From positions 1 through 62,742 of the IMG/VR virus record IMGVR_UViG_3300009108_000005: a stretch of DNA of 62,742 nucleotides; one strand, given 5' to 3'. Numbering within the stretch: the stretch's first letter is position 1; every line of letters starts with the position of its first letter. The DNA comes from a virus. Made by a program: the position numbers and the translations under genes. Below are positions 18,327 to 48,034 of the stretch, piece after piece. Under the pieces are notes generated by a model that did not search any database, was not told the origin of the DNA, and was given only the letters and a program-made list of their open reading frames with translations.

Positions 18327-18329
18327 AAT

Positions 18330-19544: not shown

Positions 19545-19547
19545 TGA

Positions 19548-22500
19548 ATGGCTACTAGATATAAAGAATTACCGATAGAGATAAATTATGATGATCAATC
19601 ATTATCACCTCATTATTCTTCTACTCCTATAAACACCAAGACAGCCGCAATAAGTGACGCCGGACTTAACTTTATGTTAGGTAAAGAATTATATCGCGGC
19701 CATCGCCATTGGGATGGTGAAAAATATGTAATGGGTTATAGATATTCTGGTGATGCTTTTCCTAATGGTATAACAGAAACAAATGCATATAGATTATGGA
19801 TTACAGATGTTACTAAAGCACAAAATAATCTTCGCAAACGGTTAAACAATAGTCCTGAATTTGTTTTACAGCATCAATGGGATGCTTTAGTTAGTATGTT
19901 TTATGATACTGGTTCAATCGATTATACCCAGACTGAAGGATATGAATTTGATTTAATTTATTTTATTCAAAAAGGTACTATTGACCAAGTATCATCTGCA
20001 ATACAAATAGATAACAGAACTCCTACTCGTAGAATTGCAGAAGCGTCATTGTTTAGATTATGTAACTATGGTAGCATGAAACCTAGGTCATGGTTACGGA
20101 ACGAAGGTATTCAATATATAAGAAAAAATTATCTTACTCTTAAAAATAAAGATGGTGGTGTTGATAAAACTGCTCAACAGCAAGCCCAATATGCTTATTA
20201 TAAAGAAACTACTAAATTTATAAAAGATATATCTGAAATTGACAGACGCAGAATTATTAATTTAGTAAAACAAGAAACAGATACTACTATTGATGCTAGT
20301 ACACCTGTTGAACAGTATGTTGTTAAAACTACACCTGAAACAGAATATGCTCAACTTAGTACATTAATTTCAACAACAACTACAACAGAAGCACCACAAA
20401 CTGGTTTACCTATTACTATTTCTGAAACTACAACAGGCACTACCACAGGAGGTGGTGGAGGGGGAACAGGCTCCGGTACTGGCGGCGGAACATCTACACA
20501 TTCGCATATTGTTTCACAATGGTTACCGCCCGGTGGATCTGATGGTCAATTTTTAAATCACTTAGGTTCATGGTCAACTCCGGTAGGCTCGGGGGATAAT
20601 GTATTTAATGGTGTATTTGCTAATTTAACTGAAGTACCAACAACTATTGCAGGATATGGAATATTAGATGCATTTTCAGGAAACTATAATGACTTAACAA
20701 ATAAACCTAATTTGTTTAGCGGTAGTTATGATGACTTAACAAACAAACCAAGTAATTTTTCCGGAGCATCTTCGTCAGTAAATGGAGCATATGGATTTGT
20801 TCCTGCACCAGTAGCAGGAGATCAATTAAAATATTTAAGTGCAACAGGTGTATGGGCAGTACCACCTAATACAACATATGTTAATTCTGACTGGGATCAT
20901 AATCAATTAACAAATTGGTCCGCAGATCAACACATAGATTGGACACAAGATCAATCAGGTATTCCTAAAGAAATACACGCAAACAACTATGCTGGTGGAG
21001 CTCCATTTGGAGGAGCAACATCTACTACAGACGGAACAGAAGGTTTAGTACCTGCACCAGTAGCAGGAGACGAAGTTAAATTTTTAAAAGGCGATAGAAC
21101 ATGGGCTACAGTTTCTAGTTATGATCAAACTTTAAACACAACAGATGATGTAACATTTAATGATTTAATTGTTAATGGCACTCTTACAGCAACAATTTTT
21201 GATCAAGATTTAAACACAACAGATGATGTAACATTTGATGATTTAATTGTTAATGGTAATCTTACAGTCAACGGAACTCAAACAATTGTAAACAGTACTA
21301 CTCTTCAAGTAGATGATATACATATTGAAATAGGAACAGTAGGAACCCCAACAAATGACACAGCAGATGGAGGCGGTATTATACTTAAAGCCGCATCAGA
21401 TAAAACTATTACCTGGAGTAAAACTACAGACATGTGGGGATTTAATACTTCTGTAAATGTTGGCGGATTAATTCATATATCAACCGAACAAGGGTCTACG
21501 CCAACACAACCAGCAGATGGTGAAGGTGGATATTTTTATACAAAAGCAGACGGAAAACCATACTGGATGAGTTATGAACAAACTGAAGTAGATTTAACAG
21601 ATGCAGGTGCATTAACTGTATCAGGATTAACTGATACTACAATAACAACTCCTTCAGGAGGAGATGTATTAACGTGGGATTCTTCAAATAACAAATGGAT
21701 AAATCAAGCAGGTGCCGCAGGAACTGTAGTAGGATTAACAGATACAACTATAACAAGTGTTCAAGCCAACGATGTATTAACTTGGGATGGAGCGGCTTGG
21801 ATAAATTCTCCTGCTTCAGCTGGAGGCGGAGGTGGTGCGTTAGGAGCACCAACTGATACAACATTTAACGACGGAGCCTATTATCAAAAAAGTTCTACTT
21901 ATAGTGGAGGCACATTGTTATCTGGGTTTGACGTTACTGGTACTATAACTGATGCAATGGATGGGTTAAACGAAACTATTAAAAATATAAAAAATAATAC
22001 ATATGTTCAAGGTGCGGCATTTACTAATTCTCCATTAGAAGGCGGAGCATCTCCTGCTGTGCCATTAACTGTAAGATTTACTATTTCGAATCCAGGAGAC
22101 GCTACTCATGCAGATTGGGAGTTTGAAGATGTTACAACACCGGCTAATACAGTTAATGTAGCAAACGATACAACTACAATAAGCAACGGATATTATGATC
22201 AAAGTTTTACATCTGTTGCAGGTGGTGATATTAATGTAACTATGACATTAAAATGTCAATCTGCAACAGGTACAACAGGATTAACAGAGGGTAGTTATTC
22301 GATTTATAAAAAAGATGCCGCAGTTGAACTATGGACACCTGCACCTGAACCTGCATGGACTACAACAAATAATGATACAGTAGTTGATCTAGGAGGCCCA
22401 CAAGCAGGTAGAGAAATAGAATTTGATACATCAGCATCGTTGTATACACATTATTGGATGATTGAATTTGGAGACGGTTCAAAATTTCCTGCAAGTGCTA

Positions 22501-29338: not shown

Positions 29339-29671
29339 ATGGCAAGTTCATTTAAAAATGCAAGTCATACAATTTCGGCGGCAGATACCGACGAAACAAT
29401 GTATACAGCAAATGCGGCAAACCAAGTCGCGGCAATTATTCATGGTTTGTATATTGCTAATAAACATGCTACTTCTAATGTACAAATTACATTAAAAGTG
29501 TATGATAATAGTGCTACTTCAGATAACATAGTATTATCTAAAGTACCTATACCACCGAATACAACATTGAGTTTGGATAAGCCAATTAACTTAGAAGCAG
29601 ATGACGCATTAAAAGTTGCGGCTACACATACAGATTGTGAAATATTTGCAAGTGTTTTGGAGAGAAGTTAA
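29339..29671 (+). CDS. Small beta-rich virion structural protein
   Basis: 110 residues, predicted all beta. It resembles a group of marine phage structural proteins with a core of the form YIANKHA...VQITLKVYDNS..., VPIPPNTTLSLD and a closing strand IFASVLERS. It is encoded between two fibre genes and overlaps the next start by one base (TAATG). It may cap or join fibres; the exact role is unknown. Confidence 0.6.
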   Translation: MASSFKNASHTISAADTDETMYTANAANQVAAIIHGLYIANKHATSNVQITLKVYDNSATSDNIVLSKVPIPPNTTLSLDKPINLEADDALKVAATHTDCEIFASVLERS

Positions 29672-31695
29672 TGTACTATGGTCAACGATATGAAGCGGTT
29701 TTAGCCGCAGTTGATTACGATGATATACAAAATATACCTGACTTTCAGTATGATACATTTACTGGCCCAGGTACTTCGTTTACCTTGACAACAGGTTCTC
29801 CTAAAGATGTTGCGGCACTAGATGTAACAATAGATGGTGTTACACAAAAGCCAGGAGTTGATTATAGTGTAACAAATTTAGCAAGTGGAACACAAATTGC
29901 ATTTAGTTCATCATTAGAAGCAGGCGAAACAGCCGTTGTAGTATATAGGGCAATACCTGGTTCAAGTCAAACATTGGCTTACACAGAACAATTTACTGCC
30001 GTTCAAAATGATGCTACTCCTGTATTAGGGGGAGATTTAAATTTAAATGAAAAGAAAATTATATCTGCATTAAACACCGATTTAAAAATAGAAGTAGGAG
30101 CAGGTGGTGCGTTAAAATTAAATGAATTAGCATTTCCTTCATCCGCTGGAACATCTGGTCAATTTTTAATGACAGATGGCACAGGAACATTAACATGGCA
30201 AACTGCTCCAGGAGCAGTAGGTGGCGAAGCAAATAGTGCAAGCAATGCCGGCACAAATACAGAAGGCATAGGTATATTTAAACAAAAAAGTAATGTTAAT
30301 TTAGAATTTAAAAGATTACTAGCAGGTGATGGTATTGTTATTAGCGAAGAAGGCACAAACCAAATAAAAATACGAACACCTGATTATACCCTTAATAAAA
30401 CAGATTACGGATTAATTCCTGTAGATTTTGGTGATTTAGTGGCCCACGAGGCAGAACAAGATAACGGATTTATTTCAGATGACACGGCAGTTAATTTAAA
30501 TGTATTTTTAGATCATACTACTGGATTAGAAGGGCCTGTTGTATTAACAAATACAGGTCATGATGAAAGATTATTCATTGCAGAACAATCAGGTAAAATT
30601 AAAGTATACAAAGGTTCTACCATTTTGTCAACTCCATTTTTAGATTTATCATCAACTATACAATCTTTAAGTACATCTTATGATGAACGAGGTTTACTAG
30701 GATTAGCGTTTCATCCTAGTTATAATACTAATGGTTGGGTTTTTGTTTATTATTCTAAAGCAAAATCGGGTGCAGGAATTGATCACGAATCTATATTGGC
30801 TAGGTATACAGTTACCGATCCTGCAAATGATGATACAGTAGATATTAGTACTGAGGTAATTATTTTACAATTTGATCAACCTGCAAGTAACCATAATGGA
30901 GGCGCCATAACTTTTGGGCCCGATGGGTTTTTGTATATTGGAACAGGCGACGGCGGAGGGCAAGGTGATCCAGATCATTTAGCTCAAGACAGAACTAATT
31001 TATTAGGAAAAGTTTTAAGAATAAATGTAGATATAGGTTCATCAGCATATACAAATTATGCTATACCAACAGATAATCCATACAAAGATCATTCTACTTA
31101 TAAAGAAGAAATATTCGCTTATGGATTTAGAAATCCATACGGACTCAGTGTAGATCAAACTACAGGAAAATGTTGGACAGGGGATGTAGGACAAAATACT
31201 ATAGAAGAAATTGATATTGTTAAAAATGGTAAAAACTATGGATGGAGTGTAAAAGAAGGAGATAATGTATATGATTTAGATCATGGTATTGCTCTTGCTA
31301 CTGCCGCAGGTACAGATGTTAATACATTTATGAATGGTTTTGAAAATCCTGTTGCATCATACACACATTCAGGCGGAGCAATTAATGGACTATCAGTTAT
31401 AGGTGGGGTTGTTTATAGGGGAGCCACTTGTACAGAATTAGTTGGAAAATATGTTTTTGCTGATTGGACTACAGATTGGAACAATCCTTCGGGAAAATTA
31501 TATTACTTAAAGGAACCAGTACCAGATATGTATCAAATAAATCAATTAAACCCTATAGCAATAGATGTTGGTACCGAATTTATTACAGGGTTTGGAGAAG
31601 ATATTAATAAAGAATTATATATTATAACACGATTATCATATGCTCCTACAGGAACAGGTAAAATTTATAAACTTGCAGGGCAAACAGTTGCATAA
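29671..31695 (+). CDS. Tail fibre with soluble glucose/sorbosone dehydrogenase-like propeller
   Basis: 674 residues. The N-terminal ~260 residues are fibre-like: a FTGPGTSFTL...VTIDGVTQKPGVDY unit shared with other fibre genes, then beta repeats. From ~265 to the end it matches PQQ-dependent soluble sugar dehydrogenases (GSDH/YliI): RLFIAEQSGKIKVY, RGLLGLAFHP, NHNGGAITFGPDG (H408 in the position of the catalytic His), YIGTGDGGGQGDP, FAYGFRNPYGLSVD, GDVGQNTIEEID and NYGW. All major blades seem present. It could oxidise host-surface sugars or simply bind them as a lectin-like propeller. Confidence 0.8.
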   Translation: MYYGQRYEAVLAAVDYDDIQNIPDFQYDTFTGPGTSFTLTTGSPKDVAALDVTIDGVTQKPGVDYSVTNLASGTQIAFSSSLEAGETAVVVYRAIPGSSQTLAYTEQFTAVQNDATPVLGGDLNLNEKKIISALNTDLKIEVGAGGALKLNELAFPSSAGTSGQFLMTDGTGTLTWQTAPGAVGGEANSASNAGTNTEGIGIFKQKSNVNLEFKRLLAGDGIVISEEGTNQIKIRTPDYTLNKTDYGLIPVDFGDLVAHEAEQDNGFISDDTAVNLNVFLDHTTGLEGPVVLTNTGHDERLFIAEQSGKIKVYKGSTILSTPFLDLSSTIQSLSTSYDERGLLGLAFHPSYNTNGWVFVYYSKAKSGAGIDHESILARYTVTDPANDDTVDISTEVIILQFDQPASNHNGGAITFGPDGFLYIGTGDGGGQGDPDHLAQDRTNLLGKVLRINVDIGSSAYTNYAIPTDNPYKDHSTYKEEIFAYGFRNPYGLSVDQTTGKCWTGDVGQNTIEEIDIVKNGKNYGWSVKEGDNVYDLDHGIALATAAGTDVNTFMNGFENPVASYTHSGGAINGLSVIGGVVYRGATCTELVGKYVFADWTTDWNNPSGKLYYLKEPVPDMYQINQLNPIAIDVGTEFITGFGEDINKELYIITRLSYAPTGTGKIYKLAGQTVA

Positions 31696-34575: not shown

Positions 34576-37500
34576 ATGAGTAGAACAGTAGTAACAGGAA
34601 AAACATTTGCAACAAACCCAACTATTAAGGGAAATGCTACATTTACTGGAGTAGAAGGGTTATCTATACCTACTGGTTCAACTGCTGAACGCCCAACTAC
34701 TCCTTCTGAAGGTGTTATACGATATAACGCAACAACAGGTAAGTTTGAAGGATATTCAAAAGATCCTAATAATTCTACTCAATCAATTTGGGGATCTTTA
34801 GGAGGCGGAGCATTATTAGATTTAAGTGATATAGACGAATCAGGATTACAAGATGGTAATTTACTTAAATGGGATAGTGTTTTAACAAAATTTGTTCCTA
34901 CTGAAGGCACTCTTTTAGATACTATTAAAGTTTCAGGACAAACAGATTTAACAATACCTGAATCAGGTGATCTTGAAATGGTATCTGGTGCTGGCATTCA
35001 ATTAACAACCGATCCTACAAATGGAAAAATAACTATTGCTTCGACTACTCAAGCAAATTTATCAGTTGACACTTTTACTGCTGATGGGAATACAAAAGAA
35101 TTTGATTTATCAAGAGTTCCTACTCAGCCTGTTGATGTTCTTGTTCATGTTGATAGTTTATATCAAGCACCATCAACCTATACTATTGTAGGTACTAGTC
35201 CGGCAAAACTTGTATTTCCAGAAAATATACCAGTCAATTTAGAAATATCTGTTACTTTTCTTAATATGGATACAGTACAAACCATTGTGCAAGATGGTAG
35301 TATAACTCCTGCAAAATTGTCAGCAAGCACATATTACATAGATACTTTTTATGGAGATGCTTCAACAACGACATATACGTTATCACAATTAGCAAGTACA
35401 CCTAATCAATTATTAGTAACAGTAGATGGTGTAATTCAAACACCTGGAGCAGACAATGCTTATTCCGTAACAGGAACAACATTAACATTTACAAGTCCTC
35501 CGGCATATAATGCTCTTGTAAAAGTAAGATTTATGGGAGCAACATTTTCTACTGCTAGTTCAATATCACCAAATGCTGTTGGCATACCAGAAATGGATAT
35601 AGGTGGATCCGGAACAACAGGGCAAGTATTAGGATTAGGATCTTCAGGAGGTTTTATTTGGATATCTCCTTCATCAGCAGATTTTAAATATAATAACCAA
35701 ACATTTACAAATGCTTCTAGTGTAGAATTTAATGTTGCATCAGGATTTACTATGACAGAAACAAGTCCGGGTGTATTAAAAGTAGGATTTGGAGACTATC
35801 TTACTACAGTATCTGTTAGTGGTCAACCTACTATTTCTATAGATTCTACAAGGGAATTAGAATTTGTTGCAGGATCGGGTGTTAGTATAGTAACAGACAA
35901 TACTGTGGAAGATAAAAAATTAACTTGGTCTGTTGCAGTAGGATCCCTTACTGAACATGTTTTACCTTCTGTTACGTCTACATATGATATAGGATCTAGT
36001 TCTAAAATATGGGATACTGTATACACAAATACATTAGATTTAGGATCTATAAATTTAACAGATGATGCAGGAACTTTACAAGTACCATCAAGTATTAGGT
36101 TTGGTGGAGGAAATCCAATTACCTTAACTGCAACCTCCCAAGGATTAGAAGTAGAAAAAATAACGTTAGGAACTGCGGCTCAAATTACAGCAGGTGAAGA
36201 TGTAACATTAACAGTTACTAGTGGAAAATTAAATTTACCTGCGGCAAACGTCGGTATACAAGAATTGAATATAAGCAATAGTGGAACAGCAGGCCAGTTT
36301 TTAAGTACAACCGGTAGTTTATTACAATGGGTAACACCATTAACCGGAGTATCGGTTGGCACAGGGTTACAACTTCAAGGTGGCGGTTCTACTATAATAT
36401 CTACAGGAACAATAATATTAGATCCACAAGTAAGCCAAGATGCTCAACAAGGTGTTGTTGCATACGGATGGGGAAACCATGCTAGTGCAGGATATTTGGC
36501 AAATATAACAGCAGAAAATTTAACTAATTTAGCCGATGTTGAAACTGGTACATTAGGTATAGGAAATAATGATTGGTCGTTAGTTTGGGATAATTCTTCT
36601 GCAAAGTTTAAAATAAAGGATATGCGATCTGGTTGGAACATAGGTTCAGTTGCAGGATCTACATATTATGGAGAAGGTCGTGTAGGTATAGGTATAAGTG
36701 CTCCGACAGCATTACTTCATATAAACCAACAAGAATCAAATCCTTCGGATCCTTTAATTGTACAAGATGGTGCATATAGACCTTTATATATTCCTGCAGG
36801 TGGTATATTAACTACTCAAACAGGTATACATTTAGAAACAGATTATGCTAATATTACTTCTCCAACTGCTCCAACAACAGGCGGTATATTTTATTTTAAA
36901 AATGGTAACCCACATTTTGTTTCGAATACTATACCTGAACAAGCATTAACTGCAAGTGCCCTTCCTGTTTATAGTGATTCTGGATCGTTAGAAATTTTAT
37001 TAAATTCTGAAACATTAACAATAGCAGGTGGTACAGGTATCGATACAAGCGGAGCAGTTAATACATTAACAGTTGCAATTGATGCAACGGTTGTAACCCT
37101 TGATGATACCCAAACATTAACACTTAAAACATTAACAAGTCCTACTATTAATTCACCAATAATGGATACGGTCACAGTTAATACAAGTATTACCGGATCA
37201 GCAATAGATACAGACGGAACATTTGCGGCAAATAGTGATACTCTTGTTCCATCCCAAAAAGCAGTTAAAACATATGTAGATAGTTCCTGGGATTCACCTA
37301 CGTTTCATATTGATGCTGTTAATAATAGAGTAGGTATAGGAACAGCAACACCAGGAGTACTGTTAGATGTTGATGGTGGTGATGTTAATATAACAAAAAC
37401 TACAGATTTAGATATAATAATGGAAAACACCGGAGATGATACTGCTGAAAGAACTGTTCAAATGCAGTTTAAACATGATGCCGGAGTGGGAGCATACATA

Positions 37501-37845
37501 AAAGCAATTCGTTCTATTAGTTTAGCAGATAGTATGGATTTAGTATTTGGTACACAACATAATTTAGGAAATGTTGCAGATAAATTTAAAATTGACAGAG
37601 ATGGGCATTTTCACATGTATGCAGGCGATATAACAACTACAGGTGATCTTAGTTGCCAAGACATAACATGCAATGACATTAGTACTGCTGACTTAATAAT
37701 GAGTAATGATAAACCAGATAGATCTGGTAACGAAGTAGACGGAACTAAAGGTTCGTGGGTTATGCAAGAAGGTGAGGAAAGTATGTACTTAATAAATAGA
37801 AATAATGGGAAGCGATATAAAATAATGCTAGAGGAAGTACAATGA
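34576..37845 (+). CDS. Tail fibre protein with modular repeats
   Basis: 1089 residues. The N-terminus has the SIPTGSTAERP...GVIRYN...KFEGY element common in marine phage fibres. Two or more DTF.GDG...Y.L...VDGVIQTPG units (~170 and ~260), a VSGQPTISI unit, and trimeric-fibre elements (GEGRVGIGISAPTALLHI; NRVGIGTATPGVLLDVDGG) follow. The last ~65 residues (CNDISTADLIMSNDKPDRSG to the end) recur as the separate protein at 44525. The Asn-Lys-rich end may be a fold or attachment tag. It is coupled to the next gene by an ATGA overlap. Confidence 0.75.
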   Translation: MSRTVVTGKTFATNPTIKGNATFTGVEGLSIPTGSTAERPTTPSEGVIRYNATTGKFEGYSKDPNNSTQSIWGSLGGGALLDLSDIDESGLQDGNLLKWDSVLTKFVPTEGTLLDTIKVSGQTDLTIPESGDLEMVSGAGIQLTTDPTNGKITIASTTQANLSVDTFTADGNTKEFDLSRVPTQPVDVLVHVDSLYQAPSTYTIVGTSPAKLVFPENIPVNLEISVTFLNMDTVQTIVQDGSITPAKLSASTYYIDTFYGDASTTTYTLSQLASTPNQLLVTVDGVIQTPGADNAYSVTGTTLTFTSPPAYNALVKVRFMGATFSTASSISPNAVGIPEMDIGGSGTTGQVLGLGSSGGFIWISPSSADFKYNNQTFTNASSVEFNVASGFTMTETSPGVLKVGFGDYLTTVSVSGQPTISIDSTRELEFVAGSGVSIVTDNTVEDKKLTWSVAVGSLTEHVLPSVTSTYDIGSSSKIWDTVYTNTLDLGSINLTDDAGTLQVPSSIRFGGGNPITLTATSQGLEVEKITLGTAAQITAGEDVTLTVTSGKLNLPAANVGIQELNISNSGTAGQFLSTTGSLLQWVTPLTGVSVGTGLQLQGGGSTIISTGTIILDPQVSQDAQQGVVAYGWGNHASAGYLANITAENLTNLADVETGTLGIGNNDWSLVWDNSSAKFKIKDMRSGWNIGSVAGSTYYGEGRVGIGISAPTALLHINQQESNPSDPLIVQDGAYRPLYIPAGGILTTQTGIHLETDYANITSPTAPTTGGIFYFKNGNPHFVSNTIPEQALTASALPVYSDSGSLEILLNSETLTIAGGTGIDTSGAVNTLTVAIDATVVTLDDTQTLTLKTLTSPTINSPIMDTVTVNTSITGSAIDTDGTFAANSDTLVPSQKAVKTYVDSSWDSPTFHIDAVNNRVGIGTATPGVLLDVDGGDVNITKTTDLDIIMENTGDDTAERTVQMQFKHDAGVGAYIKAIRSISLADSMDLVFGTQHNLGNVADKFKIDRDGHFHMYAGDITTTGDLSCQDITCNDISTADLIMSNDKPDRSGNEVDGTKGSWVMQEGEESMYLINRNNGKRYKIMLEEVQ
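37640..37842 (+). repeat. Fibre C-terminal module, copy 1 (second copy at 44620-44806)
   Basis: About 190 bp encoding a CNDxSTADxIMSNDKP, DGTKGSWV and KxYK(I/L) module at the end of the fibre gene is repeated in direct orientation 7 kb downstream in the 94-residue gene. DNA identity looks like roughly three quarters. The two copies bracket the adhesin/modification genes. Confidence 0.7.
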
Positions 37846-38987
37846 CAATTTATTCTCGATCAAGAGGAAGAACCGAACAAGGAATACCCGCTACATCAGA
37901 AGAAGCAAGAGGTGGCCTTTTAATGGCAGGTGATGCCGCTGAAGGTGCTTACTGGCAATATCCAGGTAGTCCGGGGTCTGCATTAGCATCAGGTTGGAGA
38001 TATAGATCTATATATACACATGGTTATTTGGCGGCAGGCTATAAAGGATCTAATGCATGGCGGGCTGTAAATAAAACCTGGCATCAAACAGATACTACCC
38101 TTTATTGTGGGGAACAATTAGATAGAGAAGGATCTTATTTGTCAGGCACATATAGCGATCATAATGGATATCTAGAAAATAATGGTCATACTACTGCCGG
38201 TACAAATTTATCTAGTTACAGTCTCGCAAATGGACAAACAAGAAAGATAACTACAACAGGTGGTTTTTCTTCTAGTGGTGTTTCATACGGATACGTAGGT
38301 TACAATCCGTTAACTGAAGGAATTAGTTATGGTACTAGTGGTTATGGCAATCACGTAGGTGGCTGGAATTTTAGTACTAGTGTTCATGATTGTGCTACTG
38401 CTTCCGGAATAAAAACACAAGAAGGATTATGGGCAGGAGGTACACACGGTACAACTTCTCATTCTTTACATTTTGCTTCAGAAGTTATGTATACTGCCGC
38501 TACTGCTTCGTCATCAGGATTAGGTACAGGTTGCCAAGGTGAAGATGTGGGTTGGTTAATGAATGCGGGAAATAACAAATATTCTTATAATTGGTCTAAT
38601 AGATCAATGGGATCAGGCGGTACTTGGACCTATGGAACAGATGGACAATGTAAAGCAATATCCTCTAAACACGGGCATCATTATGTAGGTACTGGTACTA
38701 ATGTTACAAGCGGACAAGATAAGTTTGCTGATAGTAATGGAGCAGTTTTATCGTCTCCAGGTAAAAATCATTCTAATGGTGAAGAAAATCAAGAAGATGG
38801 CCAAGATTGGGGTTATACAATGGGCGATTATAATGGCCAACAAAATAACTGGACTGTAAAATATGTATATTCGACTGATGCTCAAACAACAATGGGAGCC
38901 GCATGTATGCCTAAAGGACATTATGGACAATCATCAGGATTTTGTAGTACAGGTGCCGCATCTGTTTGTGACGTAGGGGTAAGTTAA
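37842..38987 (+). CDS. Gly/Ser/Tyr-rich probable tail-tip adhesin
   Basis: 381 residues, rich in Gly, Ser, Tyr, Trp and His, with a low-complexity glycine-rich character resembling tip adhesins such as gp38 of T-even phages, although no direct family match is claimed. Aromatic segments include GWRYRSIYTHGYLAAGYKGS and WHQTDTTLYCGEQLD near the N-terminus; six Cys are scattered, with three near the C-terminus. It follows directly after the modular fibre (ATGA overlap), the slot usually held by a receptor-binding or fibre-assembly protein. Probably sits at the distal end and contacts the host. Confidence 0.55.
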   Translation: MTIYSRSRGRTEQGIPATSEEARGGLLMAGDAAEGAYWQYPGSPGSALASGWRYRSIYTHGYLAAGYKGSNAWRAVNKTWHQTDTTLYCGEQLDREGSYLSGTYSDHNGYLENNGHTTAGTNLSSYSLANGQTRKITTTGGFSSSGVSYGYVGYNPLTEGISYGTSGYGNHVGGWNFSTSVHDCATASGIKTQEGLWAGGTHGTTSHSLHFASEVMYTAATASSSGLGTGCQGEDVGWLMNAGNNKYSYNWSNRSMGSGGTWTYGTDGQCKAISSKHGHHYVGTGTNVTSGQDKFADSNGAVLSSPGKNHSNGEENQEDGQDWGYTMGDYNGQQNNWTVKYVYSTDAQTTMGAACMPKGHYGQSSGFCSTGAASVCDVGVS

Positions 38988-39997
38988 TGCCAGCACATAA
39001 CCTGACAAAAACAACACCAATGGATTTTGATCCAGTTGTAACTGAACCAACTCCAGTAACGGGTCCGACAGTTCCTGACGCAAAATTAAGATATATTATA
39101 ATTCCTGAAGAAGATATTAAGGCATATATTACAGGTGGTGAATTTCAAGATAAAAATTTTAAATGTGAGTCGAAATATAATTTATTAGGTTTATCTGCGG
39201 TAGAAATAAGTGATTCTCTTTTAGAAACAATTAGACCACAACTAGGTAGATCGTTTGAAGAAATAACAAAAGATGAATTCTATTTTGGTACTGTACATTT
39301 TGCCGAAATACGAGATACTGTTAAAGTTCTTAAAACTGGTGATGGAGTAATTTGGGATTGGACTCCTGCTATACCTGATGAACATTGGAAACAAGCAATA
39401 GACTTTACTCAAGAGATGAAAGATTTTACATTATCTTTTATGAAAAAATATGCAAAAGAAATTATAGAAAATGAATATAGTAAGAAATTAAAATTTATTA
39501 AAAATGTATCTGAATTAGAAGCGGCAACTTGGGAAATACAAAAACATGAAGCAAGAGAATTTTTAACGTATGGTGAAGATGATCCTGCTCACGTAACTCC
39601 GTTTTTAGATTATATTGCAACAGAAAGAAGTTTTGATAAAACAACTTTGTCAAATAAAATATTAGAAAAAGCAGAAGAATATCAAGATAGACTTTCTACT
39701 ATGCTAGTTAAGTCTCAAAAAATATTAAAAAAAGTAGAAGTATGCACAACAATATGGGATTTAAATATTGTATATGAAGATTATTTTGGTATAATGATGC
39801 CTACCGAACAGGCAGAAACATTAAAACGGGTAGACCCAGGTATAAAAGAAGATGGTGAAATAGACTATAATAGAAAAGGAAACCGAATGGCCTTCTTTAA
39901 TACAGATACAAATGAAAAAACAACAGAAGATGATCCAAAGGCAAAATGGTTACCTGATCCTATTAATCCTTATATAGGCAACAAATTAAACTTTTAA
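38987..39997 (+). CDS. Conserved hypothetical protein of the fibre operon
   Basis: 336 residues, soluble and charged, unlike the beta-rich fibres around it. A Pro/Thr-rich leader (1-35) precedes a mixed region (KLRYIIIPEEDIKAYI), then long helices (~140-270) with many Lys and Glu. No transmembrane segment or Cys cluster was seen. It is coupled to both neighbours by TAATG overlaps. The change from fibre to helical composition suggests an assembly factor or chaperone for the adhesins, or the start of the modification cassette. Not recognised. Confidence 0.5.
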   Translation: MPAHNLTKTTPMDFDPVVTEPTPVTGPTVPDAKLRYIIIPEEDIKAYITGGEFQDKNFKCESKYNLLGLSAVEISDSLLETIRPQLGRSFEEITKDEFYFGTVHFAEIRDTVKVLKTGDGVIWDWTPAIPDEHWKQAIDFTQEMKDFTLSFMKKYAKEIIENEYSKKLKFIKNVSELEAATWEIQKHEAREFLTYGEDDPAHVTPFLDYIATERSFDKTTLSNKILEKAEEYQDRLSTMLVKSQKILKKVEVCTTIWDLNIVYEDYFGIMMPTEQAETLKRVDPGIKEDGEIDYNRKGNRMAFFNTDTNEKTTEDDPKAKWLPDPINPYIGNKLNF

Positions 39998-41340
39998 TGT
40001 TTAAAAAAGTAACAGAAAAATTATACGAACTTCAAAAAAACTCTAAATGCACACCCCAACCATGCCAATCATGTTTAAAAAATCCTTGTTGCAAAGATCC
40101 TGGATATGCGACGTTAGAAAATGTAGAAAACATATATTTAAAATACGTAAATAATGAACTAGTAAGAGAAGATGACATAAAATTTAAAACTGGCTTAACA
40201 TTTAAAGAATTTATACAAGAATATTTTAATATTAAAACACATGATACAATAGAAAATTTTTGTATATTTTTTCCTAAAACATTAGGCAAATTTGGTTGTG
40301 TTTTTAACAAAAGAAAAATTATTAATAATAAAGATAATTTTAAAAATTGTTTATTATGGGACGAAGAAAGATTTAATAAAAATACTGCATTTCCGTTAGG
40401 ATGTATTAATAACGGTAGTTCAGATAAAGATCGAGAAGATTTATTTTCAATTTATAATAAAATTTTTAATAATAGTTTTGGACGACTTATGGAACAAACA
40501 AATAATTTACCAGATATGCTACACAATAAAACAGATATTGTAAGTAGCGATGTAACAAATATAAAAGTAGACACTTGGGTAAGAGACCATTTAAGTTTTT
40601 CGCCCGAAGAAGAAAAAGTATTAGAAACAGCCCTTCAATTTGATAATGGGCAGTCTAATTATTCTTCTATTAATTTTGTGCAAAAAACAGGAATAACTCC
40701 TTACAAAAAAATTCATCAATCATTTATGGAGTTAGAAACACGATATCATGCATATAAATCTATTGTAAGAAATTTACGAGAAGCAGAAGTTCGTGTAAAA
40801 ATAATTGAACGAGACATTAAAAAAGAACCGGATCAGTTAGAAAAAGAATTGATGGTTATTAAGCTCGAAGACTTAATGTACGACATAACTGTTTTTAAAC
40901 GAAAAATGAGTCAATGTGAACGCGAACTTAGAACATATTTAGAGCTTTTAGAAAAAACAAAAGAAAAAAACTTAGACGAATATTTAAAAGAAGACGACAC
41001 AGAAGAACGAAAATATTGGATGGCTAGAATGCAAAAGCAGGCGGCAATGGATATTATAGCATATGGTCGGGTAGGTTCGGGTAATATGGATTCTATCTTA
41101 TTAATGCCAGAAGAAGATCAATTAGAAACATTAAGAGGTGCATTACATTTTTCTGGTTTGTTAACTAATACAATAGGACAGATTAATAAACAAGTTGAAG
41201 GCCAGATTAATTCTGAAAAAGCACTCGAAGGATTACAAATGCCACTATTAACTGATAGTAAAAAATTATTTGAAATAAAATTAGATGAAGAAAATATTCA
41301 GCATACCGATCAATCCAAAATTGACGGAACCACAATTTAA
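39997..41340 (+). CDS. Cys-cluster (YkgJ-like) protein with coiled-coil C-terminal half
   Basis: 447 residues. The N-terminal ~120 residues hold a cysteine cluster (C18, C23, C26, C31, C32, then C and GC positions near 88-115) arranged like the YkgJ/zinc-or-iron-chelating domain group, which also occurs in flagellin lysine methylase FliB. Residues ~220-340 are strongly helical and probably coiled coil. The final ~110 residues contain ARMQKQAAMDIIAYGRVG, a conserved marine-phage segment. The next gene starts 56 nt before its stop. Likely metal binding; its place before a U32/methyltransferase fusion suggests a protein-modifying role. Confidence 0.55.
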   Translation: MFKKVTEKLYELQKNSKCTPQPCQSCLKNPCCKDPGYATLENVENIYLKYVNNELVREDDIKFKTGLTFKEFIQEYFNIKTHDTIENFCIFFPKTLGKFGCVFNKRKIINNKDNFKNCLLWDEERFNKNTAFPLGCINNGSSDKDREDLFSIYNKIFNNSFGRLMEQTNNLPDMLHNKTDIVSSDVTNIKVDTWVRDHLSFSPEEEKVLETALQFDNGQSNYSSINFVQKTGITPYKKIHQSFMELETRYHAYKSIVRNLREAEVRVKIIERDIKKEPDQLEKELMVIKLEDLMYDITVFKRKMSQCERELRTYLELLEKTKEKNLDEYLKEDDTEERKYWMARMQKQAAMDIIAYGRVGSGNMDSILLMPEEDQLETLRGALHFSGLLTNTIGQINKQVEGQINSEKALEGLQMPLLTDSKKLFEIKLDEENIQHTDQSKIDGTTI

Positions 41341-42928
41341 TGATTTTTTAGGCTTTTTACATACCTATAAAGATTATATATATGATCTTTATTTTACTAG
41401 TAGAATGCCACCTTTTGTTCAAGATGCAATGGGCGATGTGTTTAATGGTCCACCAGATCATTTATCTATATTAGACAATGCTATAAACGTATCAAAAGAT
41501 ACAGGTATTCAACTTTCTGCAACATTTAATAATACTTTAGTTCGACCATCACAAAATAATTTAGATTTATTTTTACAAAATTTTAAACAACTTTATGATA
41601 CCGGAGTTGTTCGAAGTGCAACGATTCCACATACTCATTGGGTTGCAACAAAACAAATACAATCAGCATTTCCTGAATTAGAAATTAAAAACACAATATT
41701 ACGGAATGTAACCGAACCACGAGAAGTAGTTGCTTTAGGTGAAGCAGGATTTAACTATGTTAATTTAGATCGTGATCTAATGCGAGACCATGACAAATTA
41801 AAAGATATGAAACGTGCTAAAGAACATGCTGGAGTCAAGTTATCATTGTTAGCAAACGAAGGATGCATAGGTAATTGTCCTATGATGGATGAACATTATG
41901 AATTTAATAATTCTAGAACAAACGAAGCTCAGTATTTTAATGATCCTATGTCTAGAGTATCGTGTGATAAATGGGACCAAGAAGATATGGCTGTTCCTTT
42001 AAAATCCGCTAACTTTCCTCCATGGAAAGAAGATTGGGATGAATTATTAGAATATGTTGATGTTATTAAAATGCATGGAAGAGAAAATACTTCTAGATTA
42101 AATGAAACCATGCATATTATAAAAAATTATGCCGAAGATAAGGAAATATTATTTGATACATTTAATGAATTTATAGATGAAACAAATTTAGTAGATGCTC
42201 CTATAAACATATGGCGTGAAAAAATAAAAACTTGTAAGTTTGAATGTTGGGATTGTCATTATTGTGATAAAGTGTATGACAAAAAAAGTGTAATAAAAGG
42301 TAATGATAAAATAAAATATGTAACAAAAGAATTGGTAGATTCTGTTAATAAGGATATCATAGTAGAGATTGACGGATTATCTTCTCAAAAAATTGTTAAT
42401 TTACTTAATAGTTTAGGTAGTATTTCTACAAATTATTTAGAAATTGGATCGTATTTAGGATTAAGCACATGTGCAGTATTGAAAGATAATAATATTAATG
42501 CATTTTGTGTAGATACATGGAAAGAAGATTTACAACCATTAACACAAGAATTAATTTTACCTCCTAATTCTAAAGAAGAATTTATTAAAAATGTAAAACA
42601 GTTTAAGGGGAATAATTCTGTAACAGCATATGAATGTGATTTATTTGATACAAATTTAAAAGACATTAAAAATATTGATTTGTTTTTTTACGATGGGCCA
42701 CACGAAAGTGAAACAATAGAAAAAGCAATAATGTATTATAAAGATTGTTTTGCAGACGAATGTATTTGTATTTTTGATGACGCAAATTTTCCTAATGTTG
42801 TTATAGGAGCAATGAAAGGATTAGAACAAATAGATCATGAGCTTATTTTTCATAAAAAAGTATTAAACACAATAGAAAATCCTACACAATGGTGGAATGG
42901 TATATACGTTACGGTAATTAAAAAATGA
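41285..42928 (+). CDS. U32-like Fe-S protein fused to SAM methyltransferase
   Basis: 547 residues. Residues 1-330 resemble the peptidase U32 family (FSIPINPKL at the start, YFTSRMPPF, GFNYVNLDRDL, LLANEGCIGNCP). Cys candidates for an iron-sulfur cluster are C194, C198, C227 and the knot C317/C321/C324/C327. Known U32 members UbiU/V, RlhA and TrhP perform oxygen-independent hydroxylation. Residues ~370-547 are a class I methyltransferase (YLEIGSYLGLST, FCVDTW, IDLFFYDGPHESET, CIFDD). A single protein could thus hydroxylate and then methylate one target. Target unknown; the fibre neighbours are candidates. Confidence 0.65.
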   Translation: MKKIFSIPINPKLTEPQFNDFLGFLHTYKDYIYDLYFTSRMPPFVQDAMGDVFNGPPDHLSILDNAINVSKDTGIQLSATFNNTLVRPSQNNLDLFLQNFKQLYDTGVVRSATIPHTHWVATKQIQSAFPELEIKNTILRNVTEPREVVALGEAGFNYVNLDRDLMRDHDKLKDMKRAKEHAGVKLSLLANEGCIGNCPMMDEHYEFNNSRTNEAQYFNDPMSRVSCDKWDQEDMAVPLKSANFPPWKEDWDELLEYVDVIKMHGRENTSRLNETMHIIKNYAEDKEILFDTFNEFIDETNLVDAPINIWREKIKTCKFECWDCHYCDKVYDKKSVIKGNDKIKYVTKELVDSVNKDIIVEIDGLSSQKIVNLLNSLGSISTNYLEIGSYLGLSTCAVLKDNNINAFCVDTWKEDLQPLTQELILPPNSKEEFIKNVKQFKGNNSVTAYECDLFDTNLKDIKNIDLFFYDGPHESETIEKAIMYYKDCFADECICIFDDANFPNVVIGAMKGLEQIDHELIFHKKVLNTIENPTQWWNGIYVTVIKK

Positions 42929-43653
42929 AAATATTTCATAAAACTTTTCAAGATAAAATTTTAACTTTTTTTGAAGCGACCGATTCGTTTACTGATAATT
43001 TTAGTAATTCTCTTCTTTCTATGATAAATCAAAGTGGTGCCAAGGCTAATAATATGTTGGTAGGAGAAATAGAAAATGAATATATTATTAATCATGGGGT
43101 ATTAGATGAATTTTATTTAGACACGTTTAATCAAATTATACATGCTCATATAGAACACGATTTGAATAATAGAATGGGCAAGTTTAAAAAAATTGAAAAG
43201 AATGATGTACTAATTCGATCATCATGGCTAAATGTAATGAGGAAAAATGAATTTAATCCTCTTCACATACACGAAGCAAATGATTTTAATTTTATATATT
43301 TTCTTAATGATTTTGATTCTGCTTTAGAAACCTCATTCGGTCGAAATTTGAAATCACGATTTTTTAATATGAAAACCCAAGAGATCACCAATAATGCATC
43401 TTATAAGGGATGTCATGTTATAATAAAAGATCAAGAATTAATGAATATAATACCACAGAAAAATTTTGGTATGATTTATGATTTTGATTTATTGCATCAA
43501 GTATATCCATTCCAGGAAAATGAAAAAAGATTAACATTTGTAATGAATATTGTTGTTAATAAAGGAACTGAAAGCGAATGGGACGCCGAGAAATTTAAGT
43601 GGGAATACACCCATATCCCACATGAAAAAACTGATGCTAGAAATAATATTTAA
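42925..43653 (+). CDS. 2OG-Fe(II) oxygenase-like protein
   Basis: 242 residues. Candidate iron ligands are in LHIHEAND (H114, H116/E117) and LLHQVYPF (H191), with R202 in KRLTFVMNI for 2-oxoglutarate. The overall plan is like the two oxygenases at 11441-12947, but the sequence is distant and the SGAIYL strand is replaced by FNFIYFLND. It overlaps the U32/methyltransferase gene by ATGA, so both are likely made together and may act on the same substrate. The C-terminal ~30 residues are Trp/His/Lys-rich. The substrate is unknown. Confidence 0.6.
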   Translation: MKIFHKTFQDKILTFFEATDSFTDNFSNSLLSMINQSGAKANNMLVGEIENEYIINHGVLDEFYLDTFNQIIHAHIEHDLNNRMGKFKKIEKNDVLIRSSWLNVMRKNEFNPLHIHEANDFNFIYFLNDFDSALETSFGRNLKSRFFNMKTQEITNNASYKGCHVIIKDQELMNIIPQKNFGMIYDFDLLHQVYPFQENEKRLTFVMNIVVNKGTESEWDAEKFKWEYTHIPHEKTDARNNI

Positions 43654-44503
43654 TAATCAATGGTACGTATTGTACCTTGCAGGCATTATGGTTACATCTG
43701 CGTATGTGCAACGCAATGGGTATATATATCCTGTGCTAAATCTTCTAAGCAAATATATAAAATCAAATAGATTATTTGTTGTTATAGTTAGTGCTTTATG
43801 TGGTGTGCTACCTATACCTGGAAGGGTATCTGTATCTGCTGGTATTTTAGATACAATGGCACCTAAAGATTCTAGACGCAAATGGTATGGCATTATAGAT
43901 TATCTTAGTACACATCATTATTACTTGTGGTCTCCGTTTGAAAAATCTGTTATTATACCTATGGCAGTTTTAGGGTTAACATATGTAGAATTTATGTATG
44001 TGATGGGGCCTCTTGCAATGATTGCTATAGTTCTTCCATTGTTTTTAGTATTTTATTTTTTAAAAGAACAAGATGTAATCTGGATTAATCCTAAACAAAA
44101 AGAAGTTACAGTAGAATGGGTTAATTGGAAACTATTAATAGCATTATTTTTGGTTATTGTTTTAGGTAATTATATTAAATCTTATACAAATGAAATTAAA
44201 GCATATATTGAAAATAATGATTGGTCACTTGTAACAGGTGCTTGGATAGGATTTGCTGGTAGTTTTTTATTAGGATCTTCTGCAAGGTTTGCGGCATTTA
44301 CTGCTATTCTTACAAGTATATTCGGTGTTCAATACCTTCCTATGTTTTTCGCTATAGATTATGCAGGCTATATGCTAAGTCCTGTTCATAAATGTTTCAT
44401 TATAGGTAAAATGTATTTTAAAACTCCCTTAGTAACATATTATACTTTTGTTGTTTTTCTTTGCTCAGTTATTATTGCAGTTTCTTTTCTTCTTATTCGC
44501 TAA
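43622..44503 (+). CDS. Multi-pass membrane protein, DUF401-like
   Basis: About 293 residues from MKKLML (a longer alternative-start frame begins at 43550 within the previous gene). Eight or so hydrophobic segments run through the protein. GRVSVSAGILDTMAP and STHHYYLWSPFEKSVIIP match the DUF401 family of bacterial/archaeal integral membrane proteins. No ribosome site is obvious; the start lies 32 nt inside the oxygenase gene, so coupling is expected. A transporter-like inner membrane protein within a tail-fibre operon is unusual; it could change the host envelope, anchor the modifying enzymes or be imported cargo. Confidence 0.65.
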   Translation: MKKLMLEIIFNNQWYVLYLAGIMVTSAYVQRNGYIYPVLNLLSKYIKSNRLFVVIVSALCGVLPIPGRVSVSAGILDTMAPKDSRRKWYGIIDYLSTHHYYLWSPFEKSVIIPMAVLGLTYVEFMYVMGPLAMIAIVLPLFLVFYFLKEQDVIWINPKQKEVTVEWVNWKLLIALFLVIVLGNYIKSYTNEIKAYIENNDWSLVTGAWIGFAGSFLLGSSARFAAFTAILTSIFGVQYLPMFFAIDYAGYMLSPVHKCFIIGKMYFKTPLVTYYTFVVFLCSVIIAVSFLLIR

Positions 44504-44524
44504 ATATTTTATAGGAAAAAAATA

Positions 44525-44809
44525 ATGGCAAAGAAACTTTATATTGGAACTACAAGAGTTTTTGATGATAATGTTGTAGGTCAAGTAGCCCAAGGATTAG
44601 GTCCAGGTGACAATGTTGAGTTTGAAGATATAACGTGCAACGATCTTAGTACTGCTGACGTGATTATGTCTAATGATAAACCTAATCGTTCAGGAAATGA
44701 TGTAGACGGGACTAAAGGTTCTTGGGTGATCCAAGAAGGCGAGAATGATATATTTGTAATTAATAAAAAAACTGGTAAACAATATAAATTAGCATTAACT
44801 GAAGTTTAA
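44525..44809 (+). CDS. Stand-alone copy of a fibre C-terminal module
   Basis: 94 residues, with a clear AGGAAAA ribosome site. The last ~65 residues are homologous to the end of the 1089-residue fibre at 34576 (NDLSTADVIMSNDKP, DGTKGSWVIQEGE, KQYKLALTEV). The first ~30 residues (KKLYIGTTRVFDDNVVGQVAQG) give it an independent start. It may be a free trimerisation/tail-cap subunit or the remnant of a replaced fibre gene. Its stop overlaps the convergent lipoprotein gene by 4 nt. Confidence 0.6.
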   Translation: MAKKLYIGTTRVFDDNVVGQVAQGLGPGDNVEFEDITCNDLSTADVIMSNDKPNRSGNDVDGTKGSWVIQEGENDIFVINKKTGKQYKLALTEV

Positions 44810-45735
44810 TCTATAACTATTACAGGCCTTTCTTTCACACCAAGCAATTCTGCAAGAGCTTCCCCTGGCCCTTTATTATAATATTTTTCTCTCCAATGCT
44901 CTGCTTCATGTGTCATGTATTCAGCAGTTTTTAAAGCATCTATAAGATTTTTTCTTATAACTTGAACATCGTCATTATCATCTTTTAATATTTTATTAAC
45001 TTTTGTTAATTTATCTACTCTAACAGTTAGATGTTCTATTGTTTCCTTGTCCTTATGAAATGTTTCCTTTAACTGTTTGTTTTCAGTTATGAGCTCGGTA
45101 TTTTCAATAGATAGTACAGAAACACGTTCTTTTAAAAATGTTAATTGTTCGAGCTGTTTTTGTACCGCATTGAGCTCTTCACTTGTTTGTACTATTATTT
45201 CAGATTGCTCACTATTAAGCGATTTAAGTTTGGTAATTTTTTGTAAATCGTTTTCTTTTTTCCATGCCTTAACTAAAGCAACTTCAGTTTTTGGTACACT
45301 AGCAAATACATACATTTTATAGAATTTACCTCTAGTACCATTATATACTTCCATGTATTTTTTAACAATACGGAATTGTCCTACTTGTGCTTCAGAATTT
45401 GTTTCTAGGTGTGTTTCTATTTTATTTGTGGCTGTTAATACATTTGCAGTATTTCCATCTACTTGTGAAATGTACTTCTCATGCAATTTAGTATGTAATC
45501 CACAATAGTCTAAAAATTTAGATAAAGCATCGTATTTGGCGTCTTTGAGTGCCTTACGTTCTTCTGCATATTTTGTGGATATACCTGTAAAAAACAGGTG
45601 AGTGGAATCTTCTAATTCGTATCTATCAACCCAACTAGGTTTAGAATCATTTGATATTAAGACTGGTTGCTTGTGTGCCGTTGAGGCACAACCTACTAGG
45701 GAGGCCCCTAGTAGGATTGCGAATAGTTTGTTCAT
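44806..45735 (-). CDS. Lipoprotein with LPP20-like domain and coiled coil
   Basis: 309 residues. The signal peptide has lipobox SLVGC with acylation at C16. The domain that follows (KPSWVDRY, THLFFTGIS, ALKDAKYDALSKFLD) is of the LPP20/outer-membrane lipoprotein kind and is shared with the next gene. Residues ~180-270 form a heptad-rich coiled coil. The product should sit in the host envelope facing the periplasm. It overlaps the upstream lipoprotein by ATGA. Possible roles are superinfection exclusion, spanin-like lysis or receptor masking; none can be proven from the sequence. Confidence 0.65.
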   Translation of the reverse strand: MNKLFAILLGASLVGCASTAHKQPVLISNDSKPSWVDRYELEDSTHLFFTGISTKYAEERKALKDAKYDALSKFLDYCGLHTKLHEKYISQVDGNTANVLTATNKIETHLETNSEAQVGQFRIVKKYMEVYNGTRGKFYKMYVFASVPKTEVALVKAWKKENDLQKITKLKSLNSEQSEIIVQTSEELNAVQKQLEQLTFLKERVSVLSIENTELITENKQLKETFHKDKETIEHLTVRVDKLTKVNKILKDDNDDVQVIRKNLIDALKTAEYMTHEAEHWREKYYNKGPGEALAELLGVKERPVIVID

Positions 45736-46340
45736 CGTACAAAGCCATCTTCAGCAAGTTCTTTCCAAAAATCACGGGCATTTTTCCATTGTGCCTTTGC
45801 CGCTTCAGTACTAGCAAGCCCCATTGCTTTTTGGGCATCTTCAGCATTGGCTTTTGCATTTGATTGCAATGCTGTTTCAAGATCAGTTTTGCTAATACCA
45901 GTTAGTACAAAGTATTTGTAGCCGGGAACACCTGCGGCATCTGCTTCACGTTCAAAGTACATCTCTTGTACACGCAAAAAGTTTGCAGTAGATGCACTCA
46001 TAATTTTTTCAAAGTTACGCTCACTTACAGTAGGCATAACTACAAAACTATCCATGCCATATGTAACACTCGCTCGTTCAAATTTGTTCTTATTAAGAAC
46101 ACGAACGTATTCTGACATTTCCCGGATTGCATCCCGCTTTGCATCTCTGCGGGCATGTTTTTCAGTGCCATACAAAGCACTTGTACCTACAAAGTAAAGT
46201 TGGTTACCCTCTGGACCAGGTGGTACCATAACCCAACCAGGGCGATCACCTACACTATTAAGGGCCTCTTTAACCAATTCTTGTTTGCTGGAACAACCAA
46301 CAGTTAAAAGTGCTACAAGCACCAAATAAAAATACCTCAT
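45732..46340 (-). CDS. Lipoprotein with LPP20-like domain
   Basis: 202 residues, lipobox LTVGC (C16). The mature part has RPGWVMVPPGP, QLYFVGTSALYG and ARRDAKRDAIREM, the same plan as the neighbouring 309-residue lipoprotein (SWV, hydrophobic-G-S, AxxDAxxDA). The two are therefore paralogues, one with and one without the coiled coil. Codons are somewhat richer in G and C than in the fibre genes. Upstream is the 46337-46594 gene (ATGA overlap). Confidence 0.65.
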   Translation of the reverse strand: MRYFYLVLVALLTVGCSSKQELVKEALNSVGDRPGWVMVPPGPEGNQLYFVGTSALYGTEKHARRDAKRDAIREMSEYVRVLNKNKFERASVTYGMDSFVVMPTVSERNFEKIMSASTANFLRVQEMYFEREADAAGVPGYKYFVLTGISKTDLETALQSNAKANAEDAQKAMGLASTEAAKAQWKNARDFWKELAEDGFVR

Positions 46341-47526: not shown

Positions 47527-48034
47527 CTATTTAAAATAATTTAAATTTATAATTACCCTTCGTTTTTGATCTGTGCATGTTGCTCCTAGATGTTCAGTAT
47601 CACTTGACATAGTTAATAATCTATTTGCTTTGCATTCAATCTTCGTTCCATCTGAAAGTTTTGTATAACCATTAGTATCGTTTATATAAAATACTGATGT
47701 AGTCCATTGTTTTAATTTATGTTCATCTGATATAACACCTTTTAGATCTGAATGAAGACTGGCTTCTATTATTTCGCTTGTTCTAGTTACAAGATTTGCC
47801 CTTATATTAAGAATACAAATAGGTTTAATTTTTTCTAATAATGGCTCTAATACTCTGGCCAATGGTGATATCCATGTGTACCCTTCATAGAAGCCATGGC
47901 TAAAATAAAACTGATTAGTTTGGTCCGTCGATACACCCAAAAAATCTTGGTAGTGCCAGGGGGGGTTCTTCACTTAATAATATTGTTTGAATCTCACGAA
48001 AAGATTCGATATCTAAAAAATTATCTATAACCAT
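47527..48034 (-). pseudogene. 2OG-Fe(II) oxygenase (prolyl-hydroxylase-like) interrupted at a C7 tract
   Basis: Translation from an ATG overlapping the prs stop (TAATG) gives MVIDNFLDIESFREIQTILL, the usual start of this family, up to SEEPP. At a run of seven C on the minus strand (47959-47965) the frame is lost and stops after ~39 residues. Removing one C joins it to PWHYQDFLG and the rest, giving a ~168-residue enzyme with SLHSD (iron ligands), HLGATC (distal His) and KRRVIINLNYF (Arg). So the gene is frameshifted by one base: sequencing error, phase variation, +1 recoding, or true inactivation. Confidence 0.7.
47959..47965 (-). other. C7 homopolymer frameshift point
   Basis: Seven G on the plus strand (C on the minus). 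Six would restore the oxygenase frame. The zero-frame codons here are CCC CCC CTG, a proline run on which +1 slippage is known in other systems. Confidence 0.65.

Follow-up and report, generated by a model that had tools for sequence, protein, structure and literature searches.

The fibre-adhesin locus

We analysed the 62,742-nucleotide (nt) IMG/VR virus record IMGVR_UViG_3300009108_000005, whose full length we call the window, and in it the run of genes that follows the tail-fibre-like gene fibC: a tip adhesin, a helical protein, a Cys-cluster protein, a U32/methyltransferase fusion (hereafter 351, 352, 353 and 354, after their T4-GC numbers), a 2-oxoglutarate (2OG)-Fe(II) oxygenase and a DUF401 membrane protein (Table 1). 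A preliminary description, drawn up from the letters alone, had named these genes, said that overlaps couple them, and proposed that they form an exchangeable unit joining an adhesin with its own modification enzymes and recombining at two flanking copies of a fibre C-terminal module. All six genes are present, the fusion earning its U32 label by fold alone. Coupling by overlaps held at six of the seven junctions (fibre/adhesin 4 nt, adhesin/352 1 nt, 352/353 1 nt, 353/354 56 nt, 354/2OG 4 nt and 2OG/DUF401 20 nt, the last assuming a DUF401 start at 43634, while the program-called open reading frame (ORF) starts at 43550) but not at the one between DUF401 and the downstream module gene, which are separated by 21 nt.

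The 2OG gene matched PF13759 with 33.2 bits (cut-off 27) and DUF401 matched PF04165 with 37.9 bits (cut-off 24); the N-terminal region of the Cys-cluster protein had no Pfam match. When compared with 50,697 phage records, 351, 352, 353 and 354 matched 109, 118, 125 and 123 of them, respectively, and a megablast search of positions 34-50 kb against phages gave no match. The four genes recur in identical order in the Kyanoviridae phages Syn19, P-SSM4 and P-HM2, with annotations that read hypothetical or sericin-like. The window differs from that run by adding the Cys-rich N-terminal region, the 2OG gene, DUF401 and a second module, and by the module profile no module lies beside the run in those phages.

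The repeat reported in the preliminary description was borne out, and its coordinates (37640-37842 and 44620-44806) were accurate to within ~20 nt. Copy 1 and copy 2 (44625-44810) align without gaps over 186 nt, of which 138 (74%) are identical, while at other + strand positions copy 1 reached at most 79/186 without gaps (mean 52, standard deviation 6.5). Most of the mismatches (27) are at codon position 3, with 13 at position 1 and 8 at position 2, indicating that the repeat is coding and under protein-level selection. Copy 2 forms the C-terminal part of a gene of 94 amino acids (aa), whose product matched 45 of the 50,697 phage records; the genomes range from ~38 to 195 kb and belong mostly to Prochlorococcus and Synechococcus phages. 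The module is a widespread C-terminal end of phage structural proteins.

Table 1. Features of the fibre-adhesin locus, in window coordinates
Feature	Position	Strand	Assignment and remarks
fibC, tail-fibre-like protein	34576..37845	+	C-terminal ~62 aa form module copy 1; residues 1048-1088 match phrog_892 (tail fibre C-terminus)
Module copy 1, left border of exchanged cassette	37658..37843	+	L063 alignment stops at 37843; L005 alignment begins at 37675
Tip adhesin, kelch-type propeller model	37842..38987	+	T4-GC 351, phrog_1417
Helical protein	38987..39997	+	T4-GC 352, phrog_1604
Cys-cluster N-terminal region plus C-terminal domain, coiled-coil in appearance	39997..41340	+	T4-GC 353, phrog_1409 at 202-435
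Fusion of a U32-fold domain (about 1-335; 7 invariant Cys) and a class I O-methyltransferase (about 350-547)	41285..42928	+	T4-GC 354, phrog_1458
2OG-Fe(II) oxygenase	42925..43653	+	PF13759
Right border of cassette: DUF401 start	43634..43664	+	differing upstream genes enter out of frame (tail RNNI-stop)
DUF401 membrane protein	43634..44503	+	PF04165; follows the backbone when compared with L063
Gene of 94 aa containing module copy 2, on the backbone side	44525..44809	+	repeat match
Two lipoprotein-like genes (by eye), marking the constant right-hand limit of the larger fibre island	44806..46340	-	kept in L063-L067, partly cut by contig ends

Borders of the exchanged cassette

The limits of the exchanged segment could be read from two relatives, L063 and L064. 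L063 retains both modules, DUF401 and most of the flank around a different interior. Its right flank was 92-97% identical to the window (DUF401 95%, lipoprotein-like genes 97 and 93%, prs 92%) and its fibre end with module 1 84-85%; inside, the adhesin and 352 could not be aligned, 353 aligned over 2%, 354 was 69% identical, and 352 and 353 stood in reversed order. In L064 the interior was nearly that of the window (adhesin 96%, with 82% covered up to the contig end, 352 97%, 353 98%, 354 97% and 2OG 98%), while to the right of the 2OG gene identity was 75% for DUF401, 84% for the module gene and 83-91% for the flank. By these alignments, interior and backbone have different histories in both comparisons.

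The switch in identity came, in both cases, at the start of DUF401 or shortly within the gene (windows 43585-43705), with 1 kb between this border (about 43634) and module 2. The same out-of-frame RNNI-stop tail, read into the start of DUF401, ends the 2OG gene of the window and of L004 and an unrelated 242-aa gene of L063 and L013, as a joining of each gene at that start would predict. The 2OG gene of a third relative, L005, has no such tail. On the left, homology with L063 ends together with module 1 and homology with L005 starts inside it (Table 1), so that both comparisons put the border in the conserved fibre C-terminal motif ahead of the adhesin gene.

L005 aligned with the window from the module through the 2OG gene (5,908 columns, 80.8%), followed by DUF401 at 72%; we found no alignment in the fibre before the module, where about 0.9 kb is visible, nor beyond DUF401. 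L005 is pelagiphage-like, and its terminase is closest to that of HTVC008M (61.6%). The window's portal protein is nearest to those of large phages, among them PA5oct, Atu_ph07 and Vibrio 2.275.O (50-55%, among the best 12 of 2,479 matches). Its baseplate protein matched 60 records, the best 10 all coming from Pseudomonas phages with a length of about 287 kb; the ten host groups named for these matches include no cyanophages. We read the shared block as having moved horizontally. An exchangeable unit carrying the adhesin together with enzymes, as first proposed, thus stands, its history differing from that of its surroundings in L063 and L064 and its flanks being unrelated in L005.

The mechanism first proposed for the exchange fared differently. 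For counts over relatives, contigs whose 354 genes are at least 95% identical were merged into 27 groups, leaving out L037 (which has no methyltransferase part), the duplicate L002 and named phages; L003 stands for the window, L004, the contig of L064, belongs to the window's group, and L054 is the same contig as L063. A module was detected ahead of the adhesin in 5/23 groups and after DUF401 in 2/16 (L003 and L054), and both modules in 2/14 groups with adhesin and DUF401 visible (2/27 overall, again L003 and L054), so relatives with the same genes but without the duplicated module do exist. Although the repeat is real and two comparisons have module 1 as their left border, it is thus very improbable that both modules act as recombination points between which the whole block moves as one: the right border falls at the DUF401 start in both readable comparisons, and module 2 belongs to the backbone on that side. 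We therefore rejected the two repeats as a general pair of recombination points, while the cassette stands without them. Nor do the modules homogenise, since modules 1 and 2 are less alike inside one phage (69% and 61%) than their counterparts across phages (87% and 94%); gene conversion between them left no sign in this comparison, and no module-to-module deletion was seen among the loci mapped. Module 2 is perhaps a spare fibre end, carried as a small backbone gene.

Enzymes linked to the adhesin

Among the relatives, the adhesin and 353 lay within 9 kb upstream of 354 in all 20 groups having 5 kb of upstream sequence, and 352 was detected in 16 of these 20. Overall, the adhesin was upstream of 354 in 23/27 groups, the remaining four being cut short. 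DUF401 followed 354 within 6 kb in 16/27 groups (12/21 of those with 4 kb to the right), and the N-terminal Cys region occurred upstream of 354, as a fusion or as a separate gene, in 4/27.

The additional genes of the block are mostly of two kinds. Between adhesin and DUF401 in the 14 groups where both are visible, 25 of 34 extra ORFs were oxygenase-like (19) or halogenase-like (6), while outside the block at the same loci we found no halogenase-like and one oxygenase-like gene among 150 ORFs (Fisher p 3e-22; the ORFs in both sets are related, not independent, and members of the block served to seed the profiles, so the enrichment is large rather than exact). The oxygenase profiles comprised nine seed families, including DUF6445 and the family labelled denV. 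By Pfam, PF13640 was found in 11 of the 34 ORFs, PF13759 in 9 and PF04820 in 6, some ORFs matching more than one, while for 143 of the 150 outside ORFs none of the three was among the 25 commonest of 69 families, which limits each to at most 1/143. In 9/27 groups a halogenase-like gene was present, either between adhesin and DUF401 or in the 5 kb that follow 354.

Among named halogenase phages, in syn9, Syn10, S-WAM1, S-RIM44 and P-RSM6 a large fibre gene (presumed in the case of Syn10) is followed a few genes later by the halogenase and then by oxygenases, and in P-SSM2 the halogenase adjoins genes labelled fibre assembly. One syn9 gene in the halogenase neighbourhood belongs to JmjC_2, a family that includes known protein hydroxylases. 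Published counts give flavin halogenases in 20 of 153 cyanophage genomes (PMC10452541) and nine copies of 2OG oxygenases in S-SZBM1 (PMC9146016).

We modelled the adhesin and the 354 fusion. The adhesin gave a kelch propeller (mean predicted local distance difference test (pLDDT) score 70.5) that superposed on 6hrl_A with Z 29.9 and a root-mean-square deviation (rmsd) of 2.4 over 270 aligned residues; its profile had no match among PDB sequences at E up to 1. It contains 1.6% Pro, 7.1% Tyr and 2.9% Trp. With so little Pro, we rejected the idea of a collagen-like or Pro-rich substrate for prolyl hydroxylation; the aromatic content is only a hint. The fusion model had a mean pLDDT of 78.8 and a predicted template modelling score (pTM) of 0.54. 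Its N-terminus (model residues 1-272) matched the U32 protein 5d88 (Foldseek rank 1, E 1.1e-7; VIA Z 16.7, rmsd 3.5, 220 aligned), and its C-terminus the O-methyltransferase TomG, 5n5d_A (Z 16.8, rmsd 2.9, 175 aligned), consistent with PF13578 at 39.7 bits (cut-off 26.3). Seven Cys are invariant in 27 sequences of 354 (194, 198, 227, 317, 321, 324 and 327). The Cys-rich stretches of the model (193-200, 209-242 and 319-337) have pLDDT largely under 50, which puts any putative metal site, such as the Fe-S cluster of Peptidase U32, outside the confident model. Fold and conserved Cys are shared with the Peptidase U32 proteins TrhP and RlhA, from which 354 differs in motif spacing, the fused methyltransferase and gene company. 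A Pfam search with 27 members of 354 gave 20 families at E up to 1, none of them U32; NCBIfam gave stray weak matches only, and the Glu/Cys/Cys spacing essential in TrhP (E162, C170, C177; PMC6599085) is replaced by invariant E192, C194 and C198. Lacking both the Pfam match and the TrhP spacing, 354 is set apart from canonical members of Peptidase U32, although according to the model its fold is U32-like.

As U32 proteins TrhP and RlhA hydroxylate RNA bases (PMC6599085), we considered whether 354 modifies transfer RNA (tRNA), the U32 domain making 5-hydroxyuridine and the methyltransferase 5-methoxyuridine, as bacterial TrhP and TrmR do, with the adhesin adjacent merely because of a late operon position. 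The best PDB sequence match of the 354 profile is indeed TrmR/YrrM (5zw3, E 0.0013), but in structure TrmR (Z 16.0) is tied with TomG and many other O-methyltransferases. The constant presence of the adhesin upstream in 20/20 groups, the company of halogenases and oxygenases, the lost TrhP spacing and the surroundings of several bacterial homologues (see below) all speak against a tRNA substrate, which we regard as unlikely. The window contains no tRNA gene, which says little.

A single genome scan for bacterial U32-like relatives gave eight loci, two of them phage-like with neighbouring block genes (L076 and L077) and six with a stand-alone U32-like gene of 37-46% identity. Among 398 genomes of the order to which L079 belongs, six had a match, four of them known before and two new (L095 and L096). 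Secretion, surface-protein or peptide-modification genes lay beside or near the U32-like gene in five of six readable loci, L078 and L096 being too short. In L079 the gene stands ahead of a type I secretion set comprising, by Pfam, an ATP-binding cassette (ABC) transporter with a C39-like domain and HlyD, and in L081 such a set follows it by similarity, together with an upstream fragment resembling the end of a secreted protein that Pfam did not confirm. L080 has DUF6445 and a radical S-adenosylmethionine (SAM)/SPASM enzyme beside it, L082 a GLUG-repeat protein a few genes away, and L095 a Trp halogenase (1.8e-92) two genes away, with an M50/HlyD-like protein further on. From their gene content, the L095, L080 and L079 clusters are candidate secreted-protein or peptide modification systems. 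L096, a 4-kb contig, carries two tandem U32-like genes of about 540-550 aa.

The enzymes might instead act on host surface glycans, a small molecule or metabolites, with the oxygenases serving DNA repair or nitrogen stress and the halogenase dealing with an antibiotic. Such roles have been proposed in print, for DNA repair and 2OG sensing (PMC3037559, PMC9146016) and, in words that call it speculative, for antibiotic protection (PMC2984593), and glycosyltransferases are conspicuous in pelagimyophage host-recognition islands (PMC7029224). None of these substrates explains the inheritance of the enzymes with the adhesin as one swapped unit, or the near-absence of such genes from the flanks (1/150), and we consider them improbable, if slightly less so than tRNA.

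A possible maturation system for the fibre tip

Altogether, the results suggest that in this marine phage a tip-adhesin gene is linked to genes for enzymes that look capable of modifying the adhesin, and that the set is swapped as a block between quite different phages, which would give otherwise hard-to-explain oxygenases and halogenases of marine phages a job. We propose, with a probability of roughly 0.6, that the block is an exchangeable host-recognition cassette whose enzymes most likely mature the tip adhesin, the modification itself being deduced from gene neighbourhoods. The fibre ends in the conserved module, and the kelch-propeller adhesin is encoded next, together with 352, 353, 354 and the 2OG oxygenase. 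Module 1 would dock the adhesin, and its retention would both keep fibre and adhesin compatible and give recombination a handle, swapping taking place at short conserved stretches, namely this module on the left and the DUF401 start on the right. In this scheme 352 and 353 would escort the adhesin, 354 would hydroxylate and then O-methylate it before assembly, the 2OG oxygenases would add further hydroxylation, and in some relatives flavin halogenases would halogenate it. If adhesin and chemistry must be inherited together, their linkage would be explained. DUF401 is a border gene; that it acts as a transporter is a guess.

A number of observations weigh against the proposed cassette and its chemistry. 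Both comparisons that showed the right border have the same backbone, and in L064 DUF401 (75%) diverges more than the flank that follows it (83-91%), so that DUF401 may itself have been exchanged. Of the L005 fibre, no more than about 0.9 kb ahead of the module is visible. As to linkage, 354 lies about 6 kb away from 351-353 in S-ShM2, and in S-CAM4 the DUF401 homologue (159614-160648, KU686202.1) is about 56 kb from 354. The halogenase of HTVC008M stands between terminase genes, and in Hydrogenimonas (L083) the U32-like gene stands beside CRISPR type III-like genes (by eye) with no adhesin adjoining. To these come four points already described, namely the relatedness of the compared ORFs, the seeding of the oxygenase profiles from the block, the lost TrhP spacing and the poorly modelled Cys-rich stretches of 354.

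The arrangement resembles that of the T-even phages, in which the distal tail fibre locus gp37/gp38 reportedly swaps adhesins by recombination between conserved motifs, as described by Tetart, Desplats and Krisch in 1998. In both, a conserved fibre C-terminus is followed by an exchangeable adhesin gene and exchange occurs at a short conserved sequence; the window's unit differs in also carrying two further proteins and modification enzymes, and in an adhesin that is kelch-like by model. The host recognition cluster of pelagimyophages and cyanomyophages (PMC7029224) and metaviromic islands (PMC3909814) are likewise large, non-syntenic and composed of fibres and enzymes, whereas here a sub-unit has defined borders, and by its portal the phage that carries it is closest to large non-cyanophage myoviruses (best 12 of 2,479). 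Maturation of a ribosomally synthesised and post-translationally modified peptide (RiPP) by the flavin brominase SrpI (PMC10858898) also pairs a genetically encoded substrate with a flavin halogenase, but the substrate here would be a folded virion adhesin, with no leader peptide known.

The nearest precedents in print are Fe(II)-dependent oxygenases in variable islands of marine phages, tabled under host recognition in a passage that offers no mechanism (PMC3909814), and a putative tail fibre of phage phi18:1 that is methylated on virions (PMC13288928). In titles and the starts of abstracts of the papers listed, with subscription journals mostly outside this coverage, we found no published proposal of fibre-tip modification by oxygenases or halogenases, which is not proof of absence. 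Experimental evolution of S-TIM4, in which the 2OG gene ORF23 was mutated (PMC6224464), was considered as support and dropped, as the neighbours of ORF23 are gp5 and cpeT/CP12 genes, while the gene labelled fiber follows only about 9 kb later.

More tentatively, and with somewhat less than even odds, marine myophages in general might run such a maturation system: a swappable adhesin with hydroxylases, O-methyltransferases and halogenases, plus a sulfotransferase in another island on the same backbone, would install unusual residues at the fibre tip. In that case the tail-fibre tip, and not metabolites, would be what cyanophage flavin halogenases (VirX1 type) and many unexplained 2OG oxygenases natively act on, and the related U32-fold enzymes of bacteria would modify adhesins that these bacteria secrete. 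If this were true, tail-fibre sequence alone would not predict host range, as the modifying enzymes would count too, and the iodinating viral halogenase would gain a physiological substrate; the question could be put to virions of cultured phages by mass spectrometry.

Judging from two further relatives, the cassette is part of a larger host-recognition island that is itself replaceable. L065 shares the window's right backbone; the 6.7 kb visible to its left hold other adhesin-like proteins (by eye), a sulfotransferase (PF13469) and a denV-labelled gene, but no module, DUF401 or 351-354. In L067 both flanks are present (one matching window 12971-20207 in pieces of 65-77%, the other the window from 45159 on), and they directly follow one another. 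A replaceable island of this kind has been described for related phages (PMC7029224). At the junction in L067 (reversed, 7345-7352, against window 20207-45159) the 25-kb fibre island is absent, a natural empty site. L065 also encodes a protein without a Pfam match that looks glycosyltransferase-like by eye.

Finally, we noted some further genes of the window. The family phrog_274/T4-GC 100, named DNA endonuclease V (window 47527-47973, - strand; syn9 gp51 and gp53, in L071), gave weak 2OG-FeII_Oxy_3 matches (E 0.013, 0.0019 and 0.0003), and the window's member falls in the block-seeded oxygenase profiles; going by these matches, the endonuclease name may be wrong. This gene has no counterpart at that place in L063 or L064. 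Two more 2OG oxygenases (the first phrog_81, the second PF13759, E 3.1e-18) lie at 11441-12947 on the - strand, beside SbcCD-like genes and off the fibre island. In a fibre-like protein at 29671-31695, residues 297-596 form a glucose/sorbosone dehydrogenase domain (PF07995, E 8.8e-47), possibly another propeller at a fibre tip.

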